From positions 1-37,836 of the IMG/VR virus record IMGVR_UViG_3300027822_000026: a stretch of 37,836 bases of DNA; one strand, given 5' to 3'. Origin of the DNA: a virus. How positions within the stretch are numbered: the first letter of the stretch is position 1; the number at the start of each line of letters is the position of its first letter. The position numbers and the translations under genes are program-made. Under the pieces are notes generated by a model, which did no database searches, had not been told where the DNA came from, and saw only the letters and a list, made by a program, of their open reading frames with translations. This document shows positions 6,511 through 37,261 of the stretch, in pieces.

Positions 6511-7215
6511 TTACATTGAACAAAAGCGGCATTTTTTAACACCGCGTGGTTTTGTATTTCGCATTTTTCGACCGGACAATATTTCTTTACGTAACCCGTC
6601 GAGATCGGCCGACCATGTATCACGCCCGGGTGAACGAAAGGTGTATCCGTGTTTCTTTTCGATCTGTACATATTCTTCGTATCTGTCGGGATGATTTTCG
6701 AGAAGTGTTCGCCACTCGGGTAATCTTTGAAAGAAACAACACCCACAATCGGTACGTTCAGGAATTTGGATATCGTTATTCTTCAGGTACCCCATTACCT
6801 CATTGATACCCCATTTCCATTTTTTCATGGGGTATTCAACGTTGATACTCGAATCGATAATACCGAGCCGCCCCTCTTCGTCCGATCTTAAACCGACGTA
6901 CATTATCGATTCGTCACCCATGGACCCCATGTATTTGATAAACGGTTTTATTTTTATTTCCTGCGTACAAAATCTCATTCTAAAATTTGGGAGGGCGTTT
7001 TTTCTTTCTATGACGTCCCACAGTGTTTCGACAGTCAATTTTTTCAAAGGCCCGAGGATCGATTCAAGTTTACGCCAGTGTTCTTCCATTTCTGGTAACT
7101 CGTCGCCTGTCGGAGTTAAAACGTATTCGAATTCACGATCCGGGTGTAACTCTTTTAATCTCAATGCCATTGCTGTTGAATCTTTACCGCCTGATAATGC
7201 GACAACGTGTTTCAT
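6511..7215 (-). CDS. PAPS reductase-family PP-loop protein
   Basis: 234 residues. The N-terminal SGGKDSTAMAL (8-18) is the PP-loop of adenine nucleotide alpha hydrolases. RFCTQEIKIKPF (about 80-91) matches the CTxxxKxxP segment of PAPS reductase/DndC-like proteins. TDCGCCFFQR (about 156-165) and a C-terminal CRFCSM supply extra cysteines that could hold a metal or iron-sulfur cluster. Phage members are widespread, with unproven substrates; sulfur assimilation, nucleotide or tRNA thiolation and DNA modification are all possible. The gene is first in a leftward three-gene unit and has a consensus-like promoter about 70 bases upstream. Confidence 0.85.
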   Translation of the reverse strand: MKHVVALSGGKDSTAMALRLKELHPDREFEYVLTPTGDELPEMEEHWRKLESILGPLKKLTVETLWDVIERKNALPNFRMRFCTQEIKIKPFIKYMGSMGDESIMYVGLRSDEEGRLGIIDSSINVEYPMKKWKWGINEVMGYLKNNDIQIPERTDCGCCFFQRLPEWRTLLENHPDRYEEYVQIEKKHGYTFRSPGRDTWSADLDGLRKEILSGRKMRNTKPRGVKKCRFCSM

Positions 7216-7384: not shown

Positions 7385-7432
7385 TATCTCTGTATCTCTC
7401 TATCTCTCTATCTCTCTATCTCTCTATCTCTG
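7385..7432. repeat. 8-bp tandem repeat, six units
   Basis: Six units of TATCTCTC/TATCTCTG fill 7385-7432, preceded by a partial duplicate (CTGCTATCTCTGTATC occurs at 7357 and 7382). The tract is a pure pyrimidine/TA run between the RHH-repeat gene's terminator and the PP-loop promoter, and does not code. The 290-base gap 7216-7505 holds only this, the promoter and the terminator. Confidence 0.9.
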
Positions 7433-7465
7433 AAAACAGAAAAGGCGTCCCGTTAAGAACGCCTT
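7428..7465 (-). terminator. Rho-independent terminator of the RHH-repeat gene
   Basis: On the minus strand the stem AAGGCGT/ACGCCTT (7465-7459 and 7448-7442) with a 10-base loop is followed by a T-rich run (TTTTCTGTTTTC). It lies about 40 bases past the stop at 7506 and separates this gene from the PP-loop operon. Confidence 0.75.
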
Positions 7466-7505: not shown

Positions 7506-8330
7506 TTACTCGCCGCCTACAATCGGGTCGTCAATCCTTGACATTGGACTGTCGTCCGGTAAAAAATTACCTTTACATGCTTCGGTTAAAAACTCCCTGT
7601 GCTTTTTCAATACGTCTTCACTCACCTGGGCGGCGGGTATTTTCTTGTCGCCGGTCTCGTACTGCCACATGAAAAATGCGTCAAGTGCATCACGGGTGAT
7701 TTCGGACAAATCTAAACCTTTTGACATAACAAAATGGTACACGTCGAGCGGAACATAGAAATTAAAACGCTCGAGGTCGTCTTTTTCGTATGTTTCGGCT
7801 TCAGGTTCTAACAGATAACCGTCAAATGCAGGGTTGTTCTTGTAAAATGCCTCAATATAATAATGTAACGCAATCCTAATCTCAGATGCGCCGTTTTGAA
7901 TTATCGATATCCAGTTTTTTTGAGCTTCGGATAACATGACGCTGATTAAGCATTTAGTGTTGTCTTTGCTCAATTTTAACCGTTTCTTTTTCGGTTCAGA
8001 TTTATTAACCACCGGTTTTATAGGGTCAACGATACCGAGGTACTCACAATTTATTAATACGTCGAGCGCGTGTCTTGCCACGGCTGAACGATTCAAATCG
8101 TTTCTTTTAAACCAGTCTATGTATATGTCTTCCATTCTCAAACTAAAAACTTTTGTTTTACCATTTGTTCCGACGACTGGCGTATTCTGGTACACGTCTT
8201 GATACCCTATACTTTCCGAATCTTTATTCGTGTACATCTCTATAGCTTTTCTCACAACTAAAGACGCGTTATCTCTTTGTTTTAATAACGACACCTGATC
8301 CGTTCTTAAATTTACAAGCGTTAGTTTCAT
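7506..8330 (-). CDS. Protein with four ribbon-helix-helix-like repeats
   Basis: 274 residues, not a family I recognise. Four segments share one pattern: a short hydrophobic strand, a first helix, a turn with S, then a second helix with R-x-A-[hydrophobic]. They lie at about 3-33 (LVNLRTDQ, SLVVRKAIEMY), 60-93 (FSLRMEDI, SAVARHALDVL), 127-161 (ISVMLSEAQ, SEIRIALHYYI) and 188-220 (FNFYVPLDV, SEITRDALDAFF). A basic linker (KKKRLKL) separates repeats two and three. RHH folds are normally homodimers that bind DNA with the paired strands, so four units in one chain could form two pseudo-dimers. The gene is monocistronic and lies next to a cluster of CCGGTCAT motifs. I infer a DNA-binding regulator or origin/packaging-site protein. 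Confidence 0.65.
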   Translation of the reverse strand: MKLTLVNLRTDQVSLLKQRDNASLVVRKAIEMYTNKDSESIGYQDVYQNTPVVGTNGKTKVFSLRMEDIYIDWFKRNDLNRSAVARHALDVLINCEYLGIVDPIKPVVNKSEPKKKRLKLSKDNTKCLISVMLSEAQKNWISIIQNGASEIRIALHYYIEAFYKNNPAFDGYLLEPEAETYEKDDLERFNFYVPLDVYHFVMSKGLDLSEITRDALDAFFMWQYETGDKKIPAAQVSEDVLKKHREFLTEACKGNFLPDDSPMSRIDDPIVGGE

Positions 8331-8363
8331 GTTATATACCTTTCTTTTAAAGTTAGTTTTAGT

Positions 8364-8392
8364 ATATTAGATTATTACATGATCGTTGTCAA
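8364..8392 (-). promoter_or_regulatory. Sigma-70-type promoter of the RHH-repeat gene
   Basis: On the minus strand TTGACA (8392-8387), a 17-base spacer, then TAATAT (8369-8364), about 35 bases before the ATG at 8330. AAAGG lies before the start. The nearest CCGGTCAT copy (8433) is 40 bases upstream of the -35 box. Confidence 0.75.
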
Positions 8393-8432
8393 ACAGAAAT
8401 ATTGTATATAAGTTAGTGTTGCAGGAAATAAT

Positions 8433-8794
8433 CCGGTCATGGTGCTATTTTCAATAATTACACATGGTTATATCATGTTATGACCGGATGACCGGAAAAA
8501 CAGTGTTTTCAGTTCTTTTTATAATTCATTAACACGGCGTATATGTATATAATATATGTTATCCTTCCTCACTTTACTATATACACATACACTGTGTTAC
8601 TGCTTGCCTCACCGTTTGGTATATTACCGGTCATCGGTCATATATTACCATAATATGTTGTATTTACAGCATATATCTTTACACCTCTTACCGGTCATAC
8701 TCCGGTCACGTTCGGTCATACTCTATTATACTACTTAATTACATTAAAATCATTAATAATATAAGTAAATTAGGAGCTATAAGGAAGTGACCGG
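8433..8794. repeat. Cluster of nine CCGGTCAT-type motifs
   Basis: Copies in the CCGGTCAT orientation: 8433-8440, 8627-8634, 8635-8641 (CGGTCAT), 8691-8698, 8702-8709 (last base C) and 8713-8719 (CGGTCAT). In the opposite orientation: 8480-8487, 8488-8495 and 8788-8794 (TGACCGG). Some are direct tandem pairs (8480/8488, 8627/8635) and others are spaced about 11 bases apart (8691/8702/8713), close to one helical turn. They are absent from the immediately flanking genes' starts. Such spacing is typical of binding sites for a cooperatively binding protein. Confidence 0.85.
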
Positions 8795-8817
8795 ATATGT
8801 GTTTAAACGGTTAACGC

Positions 8818-8846
8818 TTGACAAGGTGGGTTACGTAATGTAACCG
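8818..8846 (+). promoter_or_regulatory. Possible late promoter with a dyad in its spacer
   Basis: TTGACA (8818-8823) is followed 17 bases later by a poor -10 (TAACCG, 8841-8846). The spacer holds an exact inverted repeat, GGTTAC-GTAAT-GTAACC (8829-8845). A good -35, a weak -10 and a dyad between them is what one expects of an activator- or repressor-controlled promoter. It lies about 55 bases upstream of the small terminase gene. Confidence 0.4.
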
Positions 8847-8901
8847 TGTGTAATGTATAGGAGTACCAGACGATTTTCATATGATTAAAAAGGTTATATA
8901 A

Positions 8902-9405
8902 ATGCCCGGTTATAAATTCCCTAAAGGTAACGAGTTTTGGAAGGCTCGGTCAGTAAACAAACCTGATAAAATATTTTCAACACCCGAAGCACTTTGGGAG
9001 GCGGCACTCGAGTATTTTACATGGGTCGAAAACAATCCATTGTGGGAGCAACGCCTCGTTACATACCTCGGTGAATGGGAACGTGTAGACATGCCCAAAA
9101 AACGAATGATGACACTCGAGGGATTGTGTTCATTTCTCGGTGTCACCACCCGAACATGGCATAATTATAAGAATTACGAAGGGTACGAGGAAACTTGTCG
9201 TTTGATATTCGACCTGATTACTCAACAGAATGTCGAAGGCGCCGCGTCAAATCAATTAAATCAACTGATAGTTGTCCGTAAGCTCGGACTGAAGGATAAA
9301 AAAGAACTTTCAGGCGATCAGAACGCCCCAATTTCGACCGTACGTATGGATTCGAAGGAATACGCCGCGGTAAGGTCTCAAATGTTAAAAGAGGATGACG
9401 TTTAA
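8902..9405 (+). CDS. Terminase small subunit
   Basis: 167 residues. The N-terminal FSTPEALWEAALEYFTWVENNP and the central MTLEGLCSFLGVTTRTWHNYKNY (helix-turn-helix-like DNA-binding segment, about 75-95) match P22 gp3-like small terminase subunits, which recognise the packaging site. The C-terminal half is helical, then a polar tail. A large terminase gene lies one gene downstream, which supports the call. AAAAAGG precedes the ATG. It is the first gene of the long rightward late block. Confidence 0.8.
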   Translation: MPGYKFPKGNEFWKARSVNKPDKIFSTPEALWEAALEYFTWVENNPLWEQRLVTYLGEWERVDMPKKRMMTLEGLCSFLGVTTRTWHNYKNYEGYEETCRLIFDLITQQNVEGAASNQLNQLIVVRKLGLKDKKELSGDQNAPISTVRMDSKEYAAVRSQMLKEDDV

Positions 9406-10470
9406 ATGACAATAACCGTGCATAATATAACCGGTGACGCCTGGACGCCAATAACAGCGGCGGGAAAATCCGGTACCTGTTGGTTACAGGAGATACCCGG
9501 GAAAGGTCAAGTCGTTATAAATCATTCTGACACCTTGACCGAGTTTAACGTCGACGAGTCCTATTTCTTACTGAACGCAAAACGGAAATTACAGTGGATC
9601 GGTGCCGAGTCGGATAACGATATTTATTACGCAAAGTGCCGCACTCCCGGGACTCAAGCGGTGTTAATTACCGACACGGGTTTCGGTTTCATACATGACC
9701 CGGCCGGTAAATTCACCCTTGATCCGGACGGTTCGTTACGGGTGAGACAGCAAGACCCCACCACACCTATTGTAATCGTCCCTTTGCATCAAAAACAGGG
9801 CGAAACGACGCTTGCGGCCGACGCCATTATAGATACCTATACCGTCGAGTTAACAGACGCCACGGGCTTTATTGACGGAAATCTTGTTGCCCTGTCTGAT
9901 ATTGTAAATAGTCAAGTTTATTTCGGTAAACAAATCGGCGCCCCGGTCGGAAATGTTATAACCGTTGACCGTCCTTTTGATTTTACTTTTGTTGCCGGTC
10001 TGATCATTACCAGAAACCGTACGAACATGAATATCGACGGTTCCGCGGGTACTGAGGTGTTCGGACTTAGACAAGGGCTTGACCCGGGTTTAAACCTCAC
10101 CGCCGATGTGGTCCGTATCTTAATGACTATGTATACCGGCACGACCCCCACACTTGGGGATTTTGGCGATATATCCGGCGGCATTACAACCGGCGTTACT
10201 TTCAGGAAAAGAGACGGTAACAGGGTTAACGTTTTCAATATAAAAGACAATGGCGAGTTAGCGGGCATATGTTACGACCTCCAATTTTTATCAGCCATCG
10301 GCGGCGGTCAAGACGGGTTAACAAGCCGTTTGACTTTTGGCGGTGAGAGTAAAATGGGCGCTGTTATACGTGTAGCGCCCGACGAGGACGTCGAATTATT
10401 GGTAAATGATGATTTAACCAGTTTAGAAAAGTTCGAACTCATTATAGAGGGGAGTATCGTTCTACCATGA
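9406..10470 (+). CDS. Putative virion protein encoded between the terminase genes
   Basis: 354 residues, starting directly after the small terminase stop. It is beta-rich throughout with no signal peptide or membrane segment. The N-terminal part resembles an immunoglobulin-like or beta-sandwich domain (VVINHSDTLTEFNV). The C-terminal part (FNIKDNGELAGICYDL, SRLTFGGESKMGAVIRVAP, VNDDLTSLEKFELIIEG) has the look of a conserved phage structural family seen among virion proteins, which I cannot name with certainty. Its place between the terminase subunits is unusual. It may be a capsid decoration or a tail protein. Confidence 0.55.
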   Translation: MTITVHNITGDAWTPITAAGKSGTCWLQEIPGKGQVVINHSDTLTEFNVDESYFLLNAKRKLQWIGAESDNDIYYAKCRTPGTQAVLITDTGFGFIHDPAGKFTLDPDGSLRVRQQDPTTPIVIVPLHQKQGETTLAADAIIDTYTVELTDATGFIDGNLVALSDIVNSQVYFGKQIGAPVGNVITVDRPFDFTFVAGLIITRNRTNMNIDGSAGTEVFGLRQGLDPGLNLTADVVRILMTMYTGTTPTLGDFGDISGGITTGVTFRKRDGNRVNVFNIKDNGELAGICYDLQFLSAIGGGQDGLTSRLTFGGESKMGAVIRVAPDEDVELLVNDDLTSLEKFELIIEGSIVLP

Positions 10471-33769: not shown

Positions 33770-33885
33770 TAATTCCAGAACGGCCCGAGACCGTGTAAAT
33801 CTGATGTATATTCCCAACATGCCCAAAAACCGAGCACAAACCCGACCGCCACACTTATGATTATATTTTCAATTCGTTTCCTCAC
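33769..33885 (-). CDS. Very small membrane protein
   Basis: 38 residues from GTG 33885, overlapping the helicase stop (GTGA) and preceded by AGGGGGG. It reads MRKRIENIIISVAVGFVLGF then a short polar tail: a basic N-terminus and one membrane helix. Its stop overlaps the next start. The double coupling and strong ribosome site make it credible; function unknown. Confidence 0.55.
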   Translation of the reverse strand: MRKRIENIIISVAVGFVLGFWACWEYTSDLHGLGPFWN

Positions 33886-36557
33886 TGAATAACCCCCCTG
33901 AGTCTTTCTGTTAATTCCTCGGCCTGTCGGCGTCCCAATGCTTGAGCGCTTAGAATATCCATTCCAAAACTGTGATAAAACCTCTTGAGCACTGTCCCGT
34001 TATGTTGGCCGGCCGCATTCTGATAACCCGCCCATTCGGCTATTACCGAACGTAATGTACACTGTGCCTCTTGACGTTCTCTGTGTCTGGCGGCCGCACC
34101 GTTTACAGCTTGCGGTGGCATGCCCGCCTTACGTAATCTGTCAATCATCATGTAATCAGGTTCGTCGATTCGATCCACTTCACCACGCATTACCGCCAGT
34201 AAAGACGGGTCAAGTTCGGTTATGTCACCTTCGACTTGTTCAATGGTACCCATGGGCGCCGCTTCATAAACCCACCCGCAGTACGGACAATCTTTTTGCC
34301 AGGATTCATAAACAGCGGTACACCTTCGACATGTCCTTATCGGTACGAGGTCCGGGTCACGTTTCGACGACTTGCGTTCTCGATTATCGAGGGACCATTC
34401 TCGGTGACTGTCCGGTAATCCGTGACGTGTCACATTTCGAACATGATCGATGATTATAGCGTCGGTTTTACCCTCGAGTATGCGTAACCCTCGGCCGAAT
34501 TGTTGGACGTATAAAGGGTAACTCTCGGTAGGTCTGGCCATACTTATCGTCTCGATTGCCGGCAGGTCGTAACCTTCCCCGAAAATATCCACATTGACAA
34601 GTTGTTTAAGCTCACCCCGTGCGAGCATTTCCGTCGATTCCTGTCGTTGCCGGTCGGGTGTTTTTGCATGTACTATACGTGCCGGCACACCGGCCGCCGT
34701 GTAAGCTGTCGCGAGTTCTTCAGCGGTTTTTACGTCCGGAACAAAAGTTACACCTATTTTACCCGGGGCAATCTCACAATATGATCGGACAACGTCACCG
34801 ACTATACGGGATTTACGCACGGCCGCCACAAGTTTCGGTTTACTGTAATCGCCCGTCGAACCGATTGTAACACCACTGAGGTCTATATCCGAGTAAGGTC
34901 CGAAAATACGGTAATCGGTGAGGTATCCGGATTGAATTAAACACCTCATACCGGGACCGACGACCATGGTATCAGCAAAGCCGCTGGCGTGTCTCCCTAT
35001 ACCTTTTCCGTCGGCTCGTTCAGGTGTGGCAGTTACACCGAGACCCCGACAGGACTCAGGGAATAATTTAACCGCTTTACCCCATACATTATCTTTCAAA
35101 CAATGGTGAAATTCATCGATAACCCACAAGGACGAACGACGTATCTCAGACGACAGGCTATTCGCCCGGTTCAGTAACGTTATTACCCCGGCCACATGGC
35201 AGGACGCCCCAGGACCGTTAACAAAATGCCGGCCGAAAGTTCGGGTTTGAAGTGACACGATCCACTGAACGACTTTTTTCGGGGCGTGGAGCACATGGGG
35301 TATACCGTATTTTGCGAGCGCCATGGATATCTGACCGATTAACTCTTGACGGTGAGCTATGGCGAACGTTGTACCGTATTCGCCGGCAAGTTTGTTACCG
35401 AATACAATAGTATTATGAGTGACAGTGAAATCACCGAGGAGAAATAAACCGTCTTTGTCAATTTCAAAACCGTAATATTTCCCATGTCCGATTTTCTCAA
35501 CGGTTATTCCTGTGACCAAAACAGATTTTTTCTGTTTTCTTTCAGGTGCTTTTTTACGAGATATTTTTACCGGTATTTTGTCACAATTGCCTGTTATCGA
35601 TATTCTGTAATAGTCACCTGTAACACCATTGTTTGTACATGTTTTTTTGCATTTTTTTACGTACGCGGCAAAACCAAGTGAACGAGATATAAAAGCGGTG
35701 TCATTCGCAAGTCGTTTGTTTTTAAAAATAATATCGTATCCACCTCTCGACAAAGCTCCGTCGGTGTCAATGATACCCGCCAGTAATTCGAGACGGTCGT
35801 TTTCCGAAGACGTTTTATATTTTAAAGGTATGTGTTTGTTCAAGATCAGGTCATTTTCACGCAAAGAACTATTCACGGAATCGGATTGTCTGCCATTAGA
35901 TAAAATATGGTAATTTTTAGATTTGTTATTTTCCCCGTTACGTTCTATTCTCAAAGGTAAATCTCTTGACCATGTGAAATCAATTATATAATTTTCTATT
36001 TCAGGGTCCATAGTCGTTATTGCGGCGTGTCTCGACGATCCGTCACCCAACCAAACACCGAGAAGGTACGCCGGCAAATACTCGTCAATTATTTCACCCG
36101 ACCATTTGATACCTGAACGCCAACCTTTATGGGTATGTTTGAAATTATTTGATTTTTTCAAATAGTCGTGTACGGAAATATTTTTAATATCACCTTTCCC
36201 ATATTGACAAGGGTATTTCGGTTTTGATTTTAATCCGGTTTGTTTCAGGCTCAGTATATGACTTTCATTTACTATATATGAATCACCTTTTATCGGGGTT
36301 ATCTTGTATAAATTTTCAGAACCGGAACACGTTGACAAAACAACTCTCGGTTTACTGTCCGGTCCTATTAATAATTCCCCTGCTTTAATATCCTGTACTT
36401 TTTTTATTTGACCGTCAAACATCAAAACAGGGGTGTTTTCACCAAGACATTTGCCCGCACCGGTTGGTAAAACTGCGCAGACATTTTGAGCACCGCCCGA
36501 CCATGCTTGAGTAATACGGTCCGATATGTCTGTTTGATATGGTCTGAGTGATATCAC
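33882..36557 (-). CDS. SF2 DEAD/DEAH-type helicase with intein
   Basis: 891-residue precursor; the spliced protein would be 545 residues. The helicase starts SLRPYQTDISDRITQA (Q-motif region), then Walker A PTGAGK (31-36) with its threonine after the intein. FAIAHRQELIGQ (Ia), VIDEFHHC (II, DEFH), GVTATPERADG (III), VNVDIFGEGYDLPAIET and QFGRGLRI (V-VI) follow. A C-terminal four-cysteine ribbon (CRRCTAVYE, CPYCGW) precedes a helical tail. Phage members of this type act in replication restart, recombination or origin melting. The GTG start overlaps the stop of the upstream gene. Confidence 0.9.
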   Translation of the reverse strand: MISLRPYQTDISDRITQAWSGGAQNVCAVLPTGAGKCLGENTPVLMFDGQIKKVQDIKAGELLIGPDSKPRVVLSTCSGSENLYKITPIKGDSYIVNESHILSLKQTGLKSKPKYPCQYGKGDIKNISVHDYLKKSNNFKHTHKGWRSGIKWSGEIIDEYLPAYLLGVWLGDGSSRHAAITTMDPEIENYIIDFTWSRDLPLRIERNGENNKSKNYHILSNGRQSDSVNSSLRENDLILNKHIPLKYKTSSENDRLELLAGIIDTDGALSRGGYDIIFKNKRLANDTAFISRSLGFAAYVKKCKKTCTNNGVTGDYYRISITGNCDKIPVKISRKKAPERKQKKSVLVTGITVEKIGHGKYYGFEIDKDGLFLLGDFTVTHNTIVFGNKLAGEYGTTFAIAHRQELIGQISMALAKYGIPHVLHAPKKVVQWIVSLQTRTFGRHFVNGPGASCHVAGVITLLNRANSLSSEIRRSSLWVIDEFHHCLKDNVWGKAVKLFPESCRGLGVTATPERADGKGIGRHASGFADTMVVGPGMRCLIQSGYLTDYRIFGPYSDIDLSGVTIGSTGDYSKPKLVAAVRKSRIVGDVVRSYCEIAPGKIGVTFVPDVKTAEELATAYTAAGVPARIVHAKTPDRQRQESTEMLARGELKQLVNVDIFGEGYDLPAIETISMARPTESYPLYVQQFGRGLRILEGKTDAIIIDHVRNVTRHGLPDSHREWSLDNRERKSSKRDPDLVPIRTCRRCTAVYESWQKDCPYCGWVYEAAPMGTIEQVEGDITELDPSLLAVMRGEVDRIDEPDYMMIDRLRKAGMPPQAVNGAAARHRERQEAQCTLRSVIAEWAGYQNAAGQHNGTVLKRFYHSFGMDILSAQALGRRQAEELTERLRGVIQ
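35412..36449 (-). mobile_element. Intein with LAGLIDADG homing endonuclease in the helicase P-loop
   Basis: 346 residues inserted between K and T of GAGKT. It begins CLGENTPVLM (block A, catalytic Cys1), has NESHILSL (block B His), two dodecapeptide motifs LLGVWLGDG and LAGIIDTDG with the catalytic acidic residues, and ends KYYGFEIDKDGLFLLGDFTV then THN (blocks F/G, terminal Asn) before Thr+1. All splicing residues are present and the frame is open, so it should be active for splicing; both LAGLIDADG acidic residues are present too. Removing it restores an exact Walker A. Confidence 0.93.
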
Positions 36558-36823: not shown

Positions 36824-36954
36824 GTTTTAATACCTCGGTTTGCTATGTAAAAAATTAAAAGACCGGTCAAGTTAAGGTACGGAAATAACGGACCGTCCGA
36901 ACCCGTGAGTAAAAGACCGGCGACCCATGCCGCGGCGAGTATTGAACGTTTCAT
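36811..36954 (-). CDS. Small two-span membrane protein, first gene of leftward operon
   Basis: 47 residues, starting MKRSILAAAWVAGLLLTG and then a second hydrophobic stretch (YLNLTGLLIFYIANRG). GGAGGG lies 6 bases before ATG 36954, a near-perfect ribosome site. It overlaps the next gene's start by 13 bases. It is the first product of the leftward promoter at 36988-37016; no family recognised. Confidence 0.62.
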   Translation of the reverse strand: MKRSILAAAWVAGLLLTGSDGPLFPYLNLTGLLIFYIANRGIKTWKI

Positions 36955-37096: not shown

Positions 37097-37253
37097 ATGG
37101 ACTTTCTAAAGGCCAGAAAGAAAAAACAGTTAACACAGGAAGAGGTGGCGCGTAAAGCGGGCATAAGCTTGTACACCTACCAATTAATTGAGCGCGGATC
37201 GACAGCAAAACCGCGTGAAAAAACTTTAACCAAATTAAAGGAGATTTTGAACA

Positions 37254-37261
<8 letters not shown>
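37097..37261 (+). CDS. Small HTH (Cro/C1-type) regulator
   Basis: 54 residues, starting MDFLKARKKKQLTQEEVARK. QLTQEEVARKAGISLYTYQL (11-30) is a textbook XRE-family helix-turn-helix, followed by IERGSTAKPREKTLTKLKEIL as the closing helices. Preceded by AAGGAGG. It is first in the rightward early run and faces the leftward operon across two divergent promoters, so control of both promoters is likely. Without a second repressor gene or integrase, it need not be a lysogeny switch. Confidence 0.82.

Follow-up and report, generated by a model that had tools for sequence, protein, structure and literature searches.

A single-chain phage protein with four predicted ribbon-helix-helix units and a box-rich divergent region before the terminase genes

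Results

The gene at 7506-8330 (minus strand, ATG to TAA) of the window, i.e., the whole 37,836-nucleotide stretch of viral DNA analyzed here, encodes a 274-aa protein, P0001, in which four ribbon-helix-helix (RHH) units can be recognized. A preliminary description had proposed four RHH-like segments (at about residues 3-33, 60-93, 127-161 and 188-220), which could make two built-in dimers. The segments are real, the first two by a structural model and the last two by homology. Given the model of the first half, its fold matches and a two-gene relative, the best-supported reading of P0001 is two consecutive single-chain RHH pseudo-dimers, the second of them assigned by homology.

The open reading frame is regarded as a real gene because a related IMG/VR contig of 37,440 bp (L002) encodes an orthologue (about 60-64% identity) with a low dN of 0.28 and saturated synonymous sites; L001 carries the gene at 100% identity. 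Half 1 (aa 1-104, 8019-8330, minus strand) contains units 1 and 2 and is the predicted intramolecular pseudo-dimer, and half 2 (aa 121-231, 7638-7970, minus strand), homologous to half 1, contains units 3 and 4. The alignment places between them a proline/lysine-rich, poorly conserved linker (aa 105-120, 7971-8018, minus strand). Half 2 is the more conserved, with 77% identity to L002 vs. 52% for half 1, and the stretch around the linker (aa 100-121) has 45%. The L002 orthologue carries an extra C-terminal domain of ~180 aa (L002:6787-7335) without a confident family match.

The repeat was sought within P0001 itself and then with its relatives. Self-comparison, proposed earlier as a check, was divided in its outcome: the best ungapped pair of 30-mers scored 21, the median for shuffles being 20, which is not above chance, but the top registers did pair unit 2 with unit 4 (offset 127) and unit 1 with unit 3 (offset 125). 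The offsets of 125-127 suggest that the repeat is a duplicated two-unit half. Adding relatives makes the repeat significant, as a half-1 profile found half 2 at E 3e-4 and ranked both half-2 sequences, together with the second protein of the two-gene relative L007, above all 9,000 shuffles. The two halves aligned by hhalign with 94% probability. Profiles of single units gave a significant match between units 2 and 4 and a marginal one between units 1 and 2. The claim for unit 3 rests on half-level homology, because unit 3 alone was not detected by the unit-level profiles. From the homology of half 2 to half 1 we infer that units 3 and 4 form an RHH pair as units 1 and 2 do.

AlphaFold2 predicted aa 1-104, from an alignment of six homologous halves, as a single chain that holds two RHH units in the order strand-helix-helix-(helix)-strand-helix-helix (pLDDT 90.7, pTM 0.84). 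The elements of the model (E2-9, H10-17, H22-34 and E59-66, H68-76, H81-98) coincide with the first two segments originally proposed. Units 1 and 2 pair in the model through an antiparallel ribbon, as is the rule in the RHH superfamily, which places half 1 by model, and half 2 by homology, in the single-chain two-RHH type of TraY and AvtR. The full-length model, built on a two-sequence alignment, was uninformative (pLDDT 34). In a Foldseek search with half 1 the top ten matches were all F TraY, followed by VirC2, with a modest best E-value of 6e-3. Structural alignment by VIA-align gave Z scores of 8.4 for F TraY (91 residues, rmsd 3.1, 15% identity), 5.7 for single-chain Arc, 5.2 for AvtR, 5.0 for VirC2 and 4.9 for RspWYL1; Z values of 5 are common, yet the list consists specifically of single-chain RHH pairs.

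A terminase-anchored search located the contig L007, where the divergent position of the single four-RHH gene is taken by two genes of ~104 aa with an ATGA overlap (L007:2305-2927). Each gene encodes two RHH units, which supports the presence of two built-in dimers in P0001. In single comparisons, the product of the first gene (L007A, 104 aa) matches half 1 with 34% identity over 97 aa (E 9e-15) and half 2 with E 2e-7. The product of the second gene (L007B) is closer to half 1, its hhalign probability against half 2 being 0.4%, and it is not clearly, by sequence, the orthologue of half 2. A frameshift artefact behind the two genes is unlikely, considering that the ATGA overlap is clean and that the second start is directly followed by a new strand segment. 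The two-gene layout is known from this single contig. A PAPS-reductase-like gene (6511-7215 in the window) adjoins the RHH gene, and one lies beside the RHH gene in L007 too.

Between the RHH gene and the divergent small terminase gene lies a putative control region of 571 bp (8331-8901; GC 0.32) with nine CGGTCA boxes, vs. 37 in the other 37.3 kb, a 16-fold higher density (Poisson P 1e-8). All five genome copies of the 8-mer TCCGGTCA fall inside it. Searches for tRNAs and Rfam families gave no match. Box 1 (CCGGTCA, 8433-8439, plus strand) is followed by the tandem boxes 2 and 3 (ATGACCGGATGACCGG, 8480-8495, minus strand), 8 bp apart in an arrangement identical in L002, and by boxes 4 and 5 (CCGGTCATCGGTCAT, 8627-8641, plus strand), 7 bp apart, with counterparts at this place in L007 (also 7 bp) and in L002 (8 bp). 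Boxes 6 to 8 (8691-8719, plus strand) have CGGTCA at 8692, 8703 and 8713, i.e., 10-11 bp apart, and box 9 (TGACCGG, 8788-8794, minus strand) starts 30 bp upstream of the late -35 element. The tandem spacings near the P0001 gene are 7-8 bp and ~11 bp. RHH dimers of the MetJ, Arc, CopG and omega kind bind tandem boxes about 7-11 bp apart, spacings that match those observed here, although these proteins are homodimers of single-unit chains and read other box sequences. With tandem boxes at 7-8 and ~11 bp, it is plausible that one P0001 protein holds two sites.

The boxes accompany the gene in the related phages. The control regions of L002 and L007 contain nine and five boxes, respectively, in a similar layout with tandem pairs 7-8 bp apart; in the whole L002 record (G001, 37,440 bp) all five copies of CCGGTCAT are confined to 290 bp of its control region, and in L007 the five CGGTCA of the contig all fall inside its own. 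Four relatives of the small terminase subunit (TerS), beside which no such RHH gene was seen, have 0-1 boxes upstream of TerS, one of the four having just 354 bp of upstream sequence. As the system is present in just three phages, this co-occurrence of boxes and gene is a small sample. A search of viral contigs with TGACCGGATGACCGGA recovered the known relatives; the other TGACCGGATGACCGGA loci, where the half profile has no match, were taken as chance. Elsewhere in the window, a lone CCGGTCA box (36863-36869) lies in non-coding DNA that precedes the leftward helicase operon. The helicase gene at 33882-36557 has an apparent intein bearing Hint and LAGLIDADG homing endonuclease domains. A simple repeat of the CTATCTCT type (7385-7432) is located downstream of the RHH gene, and the control region of L002 has TCCTTCTA repeats that resemble it.

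Candidate promoters face both ways, in a control region where the number of promoter-like matches is not above that in shuffles. The candidate RHH-gene promoter (TTGACA-17-TAATAT, 8364-8392, minus strand) is overlapped by a one-mismatch box (CGATCA). The candidate late promoter (TTGACA-17-TAACCG, 8818-8846, plus strand) has a poor -10 element and is kept upstream of the terminase gene as TTGACA-17-TAACSG in all three phages. Upstream of this conserved -35 element, the nearest box begins at a distance of 30 bp here and of 40 and 41 bp in the other two phages, a difference of one helical turn. The poor -10 element and the phasing of the box are a hint that the late promoter may be activated. Shortly after the RHH gene comes a terminator-like hairpin (7442-7465, minus strand), which is weak on its own, because two such hairpins were found vs. 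1.3 expected. The small terminase gene (gp3-type, 8902-9405, plus strand; PF16677 at E 2e-21, phrog_606) is the first in the rightward packaging/head operon. A 354-aa open reading frame of unknown family (9406-10470), absent in L002, lies between the small and large terminase genes.

Discussion

P0001 is best compared with known proteins half by half. F TraY (PDB 9f10; PMC12117103), the best fold match, holds a whole RHH dimer in one monomer as half 1 is predicted to do, and several copies of it line up on adjacent sites (PMC12117103). It differs in having one pseudo-dimer per chain, against two in P0001, and in serving the conjugation relaxosome. AvtR of Acidianus filamentous virus 6 (PDB 4hv0) resembles half 1 as a viral protein with two tandem RHH units (fold match Z 5.2), and would by analogy be the closest functional model for P0001: this two-RHH monomer acts on the DNA that separates two viral genes, where it represses its own gene and can activate as well as repress the neighbor gene, with concentration-dependent effects (PMC5569661). 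AvtR has two units rather than four, comes from an archaeal virus and reads a different operator. Sequence homology between AvtR and P0001 was undetected, and a profile search of PDB sequences returned no RHH match. VirC2 (PDB 2rh3) and the N-terminal domain of RspWYL1 (PDB 6oaw) also fuse two RHH units in one chain like half 1; VirC2, however, is a knotted T-DNA factor, WYL1 binds RNA, and each has two units only, vs. four in P0001.

The preliminary description knew of no named family with four such units in one chain. This holds for Pfam and PHROGs. With whole P0001 and with its single units, Pfam gave no RHH family match at E up to 10, the RHH_1 cut-off not being reached, and PHROGs offered no regulator family for P0001 and nothing above noise for the protein or its units. 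By tblastn in 50,697 phages P0001 had no match and L007A a best E of 8, and scans of species genomes for RHH and TerL found none. A match of the half profile to AcrIF25 (E 0.39) was dismissed as noise. In the set of papers searched by text, none speaks of four-RHH or tandem ribbon-helix-helix proteins.

As a layout, four units in one chain are not unique, since an archaeal-virus counterpart exists, judged by sequence, in STSV1 ORF23. Two-, four- and six-RHH proteins annotated as hypothetical form a family in STSV1 (L024, NC_006268, 20795-27334; ORF20-24 and 26), with paralogues in STSV2 (L026, JQ287645, 16057-24615): ORF23 has four units by sequence, ORF26 probably four, ORF21 and ORF22 six and ORF20 two. 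These leads came from structure matches, and UniProt matches were assigned to ORFs by length. The four units of ORF23 were unremarked in the literature found. The STSV1/STSV2 proteins (phrog_9615) are, like P0001, viral single-chain multi-RHH proteins, and the longer ones adjoin the two-RHH paralogue ORF20. They belong to archaeal spindle-shaped viruses, however, and are recognized by Pfam RHH_1. P0001 aligned with their PHA02938/phrog_9615 family at a non-significant hhalign probability of 9.8%, and had no match to phrog_9615 in PHROGs.

We consider it likely that P0001, with two DNA-reading heads per chain, regulates its own gene and the late operon through the CGGTCA boxes. Each half would fold on itself like F TraY or AvtR and use its two-stranded ribbon to read a single asymmetric box of 7-8 bp (consensus yCGGTCAt). 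One chain would sit with its halves on two neighboring boxes, and several chains would coat the divergent region of 571 bp or bridge it. Once occupied, the boxes would shut off the leftward promoter of P0001 and determine when the rightward late promoter for the terminase and head genes is active, both directions probably running from one switch as in AvtR. In this scheme the binding of P0001 to the boxes, its autoregulation and the sign of its effect on the late promoter are inferences.

That the boxes of all three phages immediately precede the small terminase gene could also be explained by a role in packaging, in which they would be a pac/cos-like site that P0001 bridges or marks for the terminase, rather than a transcriptional target. 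The TraY-like fold of half 1 fits such a role, TraY being an architectural DNA-processing protein. We find it improbable nonetheless: the terminase is gp3/P22-like, and the annotated pac sites of that type lie inside the small-subunit gene, relatives with a homologous TerS do without the boxes (0-1 upstream), and the boxes lie on either side of promoter-like elements that belong to the two divergent genes. Still less probable is a replication or partition factor bound to iteron-like origin repeats. The control region is indeed AT-rich with direct repeats, and RHH proteins such as ParG and omega work in partition, but no GC-skew switch marks it apart from what gene direction explains, none of the scanned genes encodes a ParA-like partner, and the phage's own polymerase and primase genes lie outside this unit.

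The boxes could instead belong to another factor, of phage or host, and the four-RHH protein could have its role elsewhere. The window does encode a possible second phage regulator, a small HTH_3 (Cro/C1-type) protein of 54 aa at 37097-37261. We give this explanation about as little weight as packaging, given that in three phages the boxes adjoin and co-occur with the RHH gene, and not with the terminase alone. Regulation of its own gene and the late operon by P0001 is the preferred reading.

We lean slightly toward regarding P0001 as a member of an undescribed class of phage regulators, in which pseudo-dimers are fused head to tail and one chain would read two adjacent asymmetric boxes. Two coupled two-RHH genes, one four-RHH gene, and a four-RHH gene with an extra domain would then form a natural series at the same late-gene switch. 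RHH regulators usually assemble as homodimers and then cooperate on tandem operator boxes. In P0001 both levels of assembly, dimer and cooperation, seem to be built into one chain, of which L007 is the natural split version. The fused and split versions allow one to ask what fusion buys, be it recognition of asymmetric boxes, fixed cooperativity or DNA bridging, and the analysis identifies, for a group of uncultured phages, a late-gene control region that is compact and open to testing.
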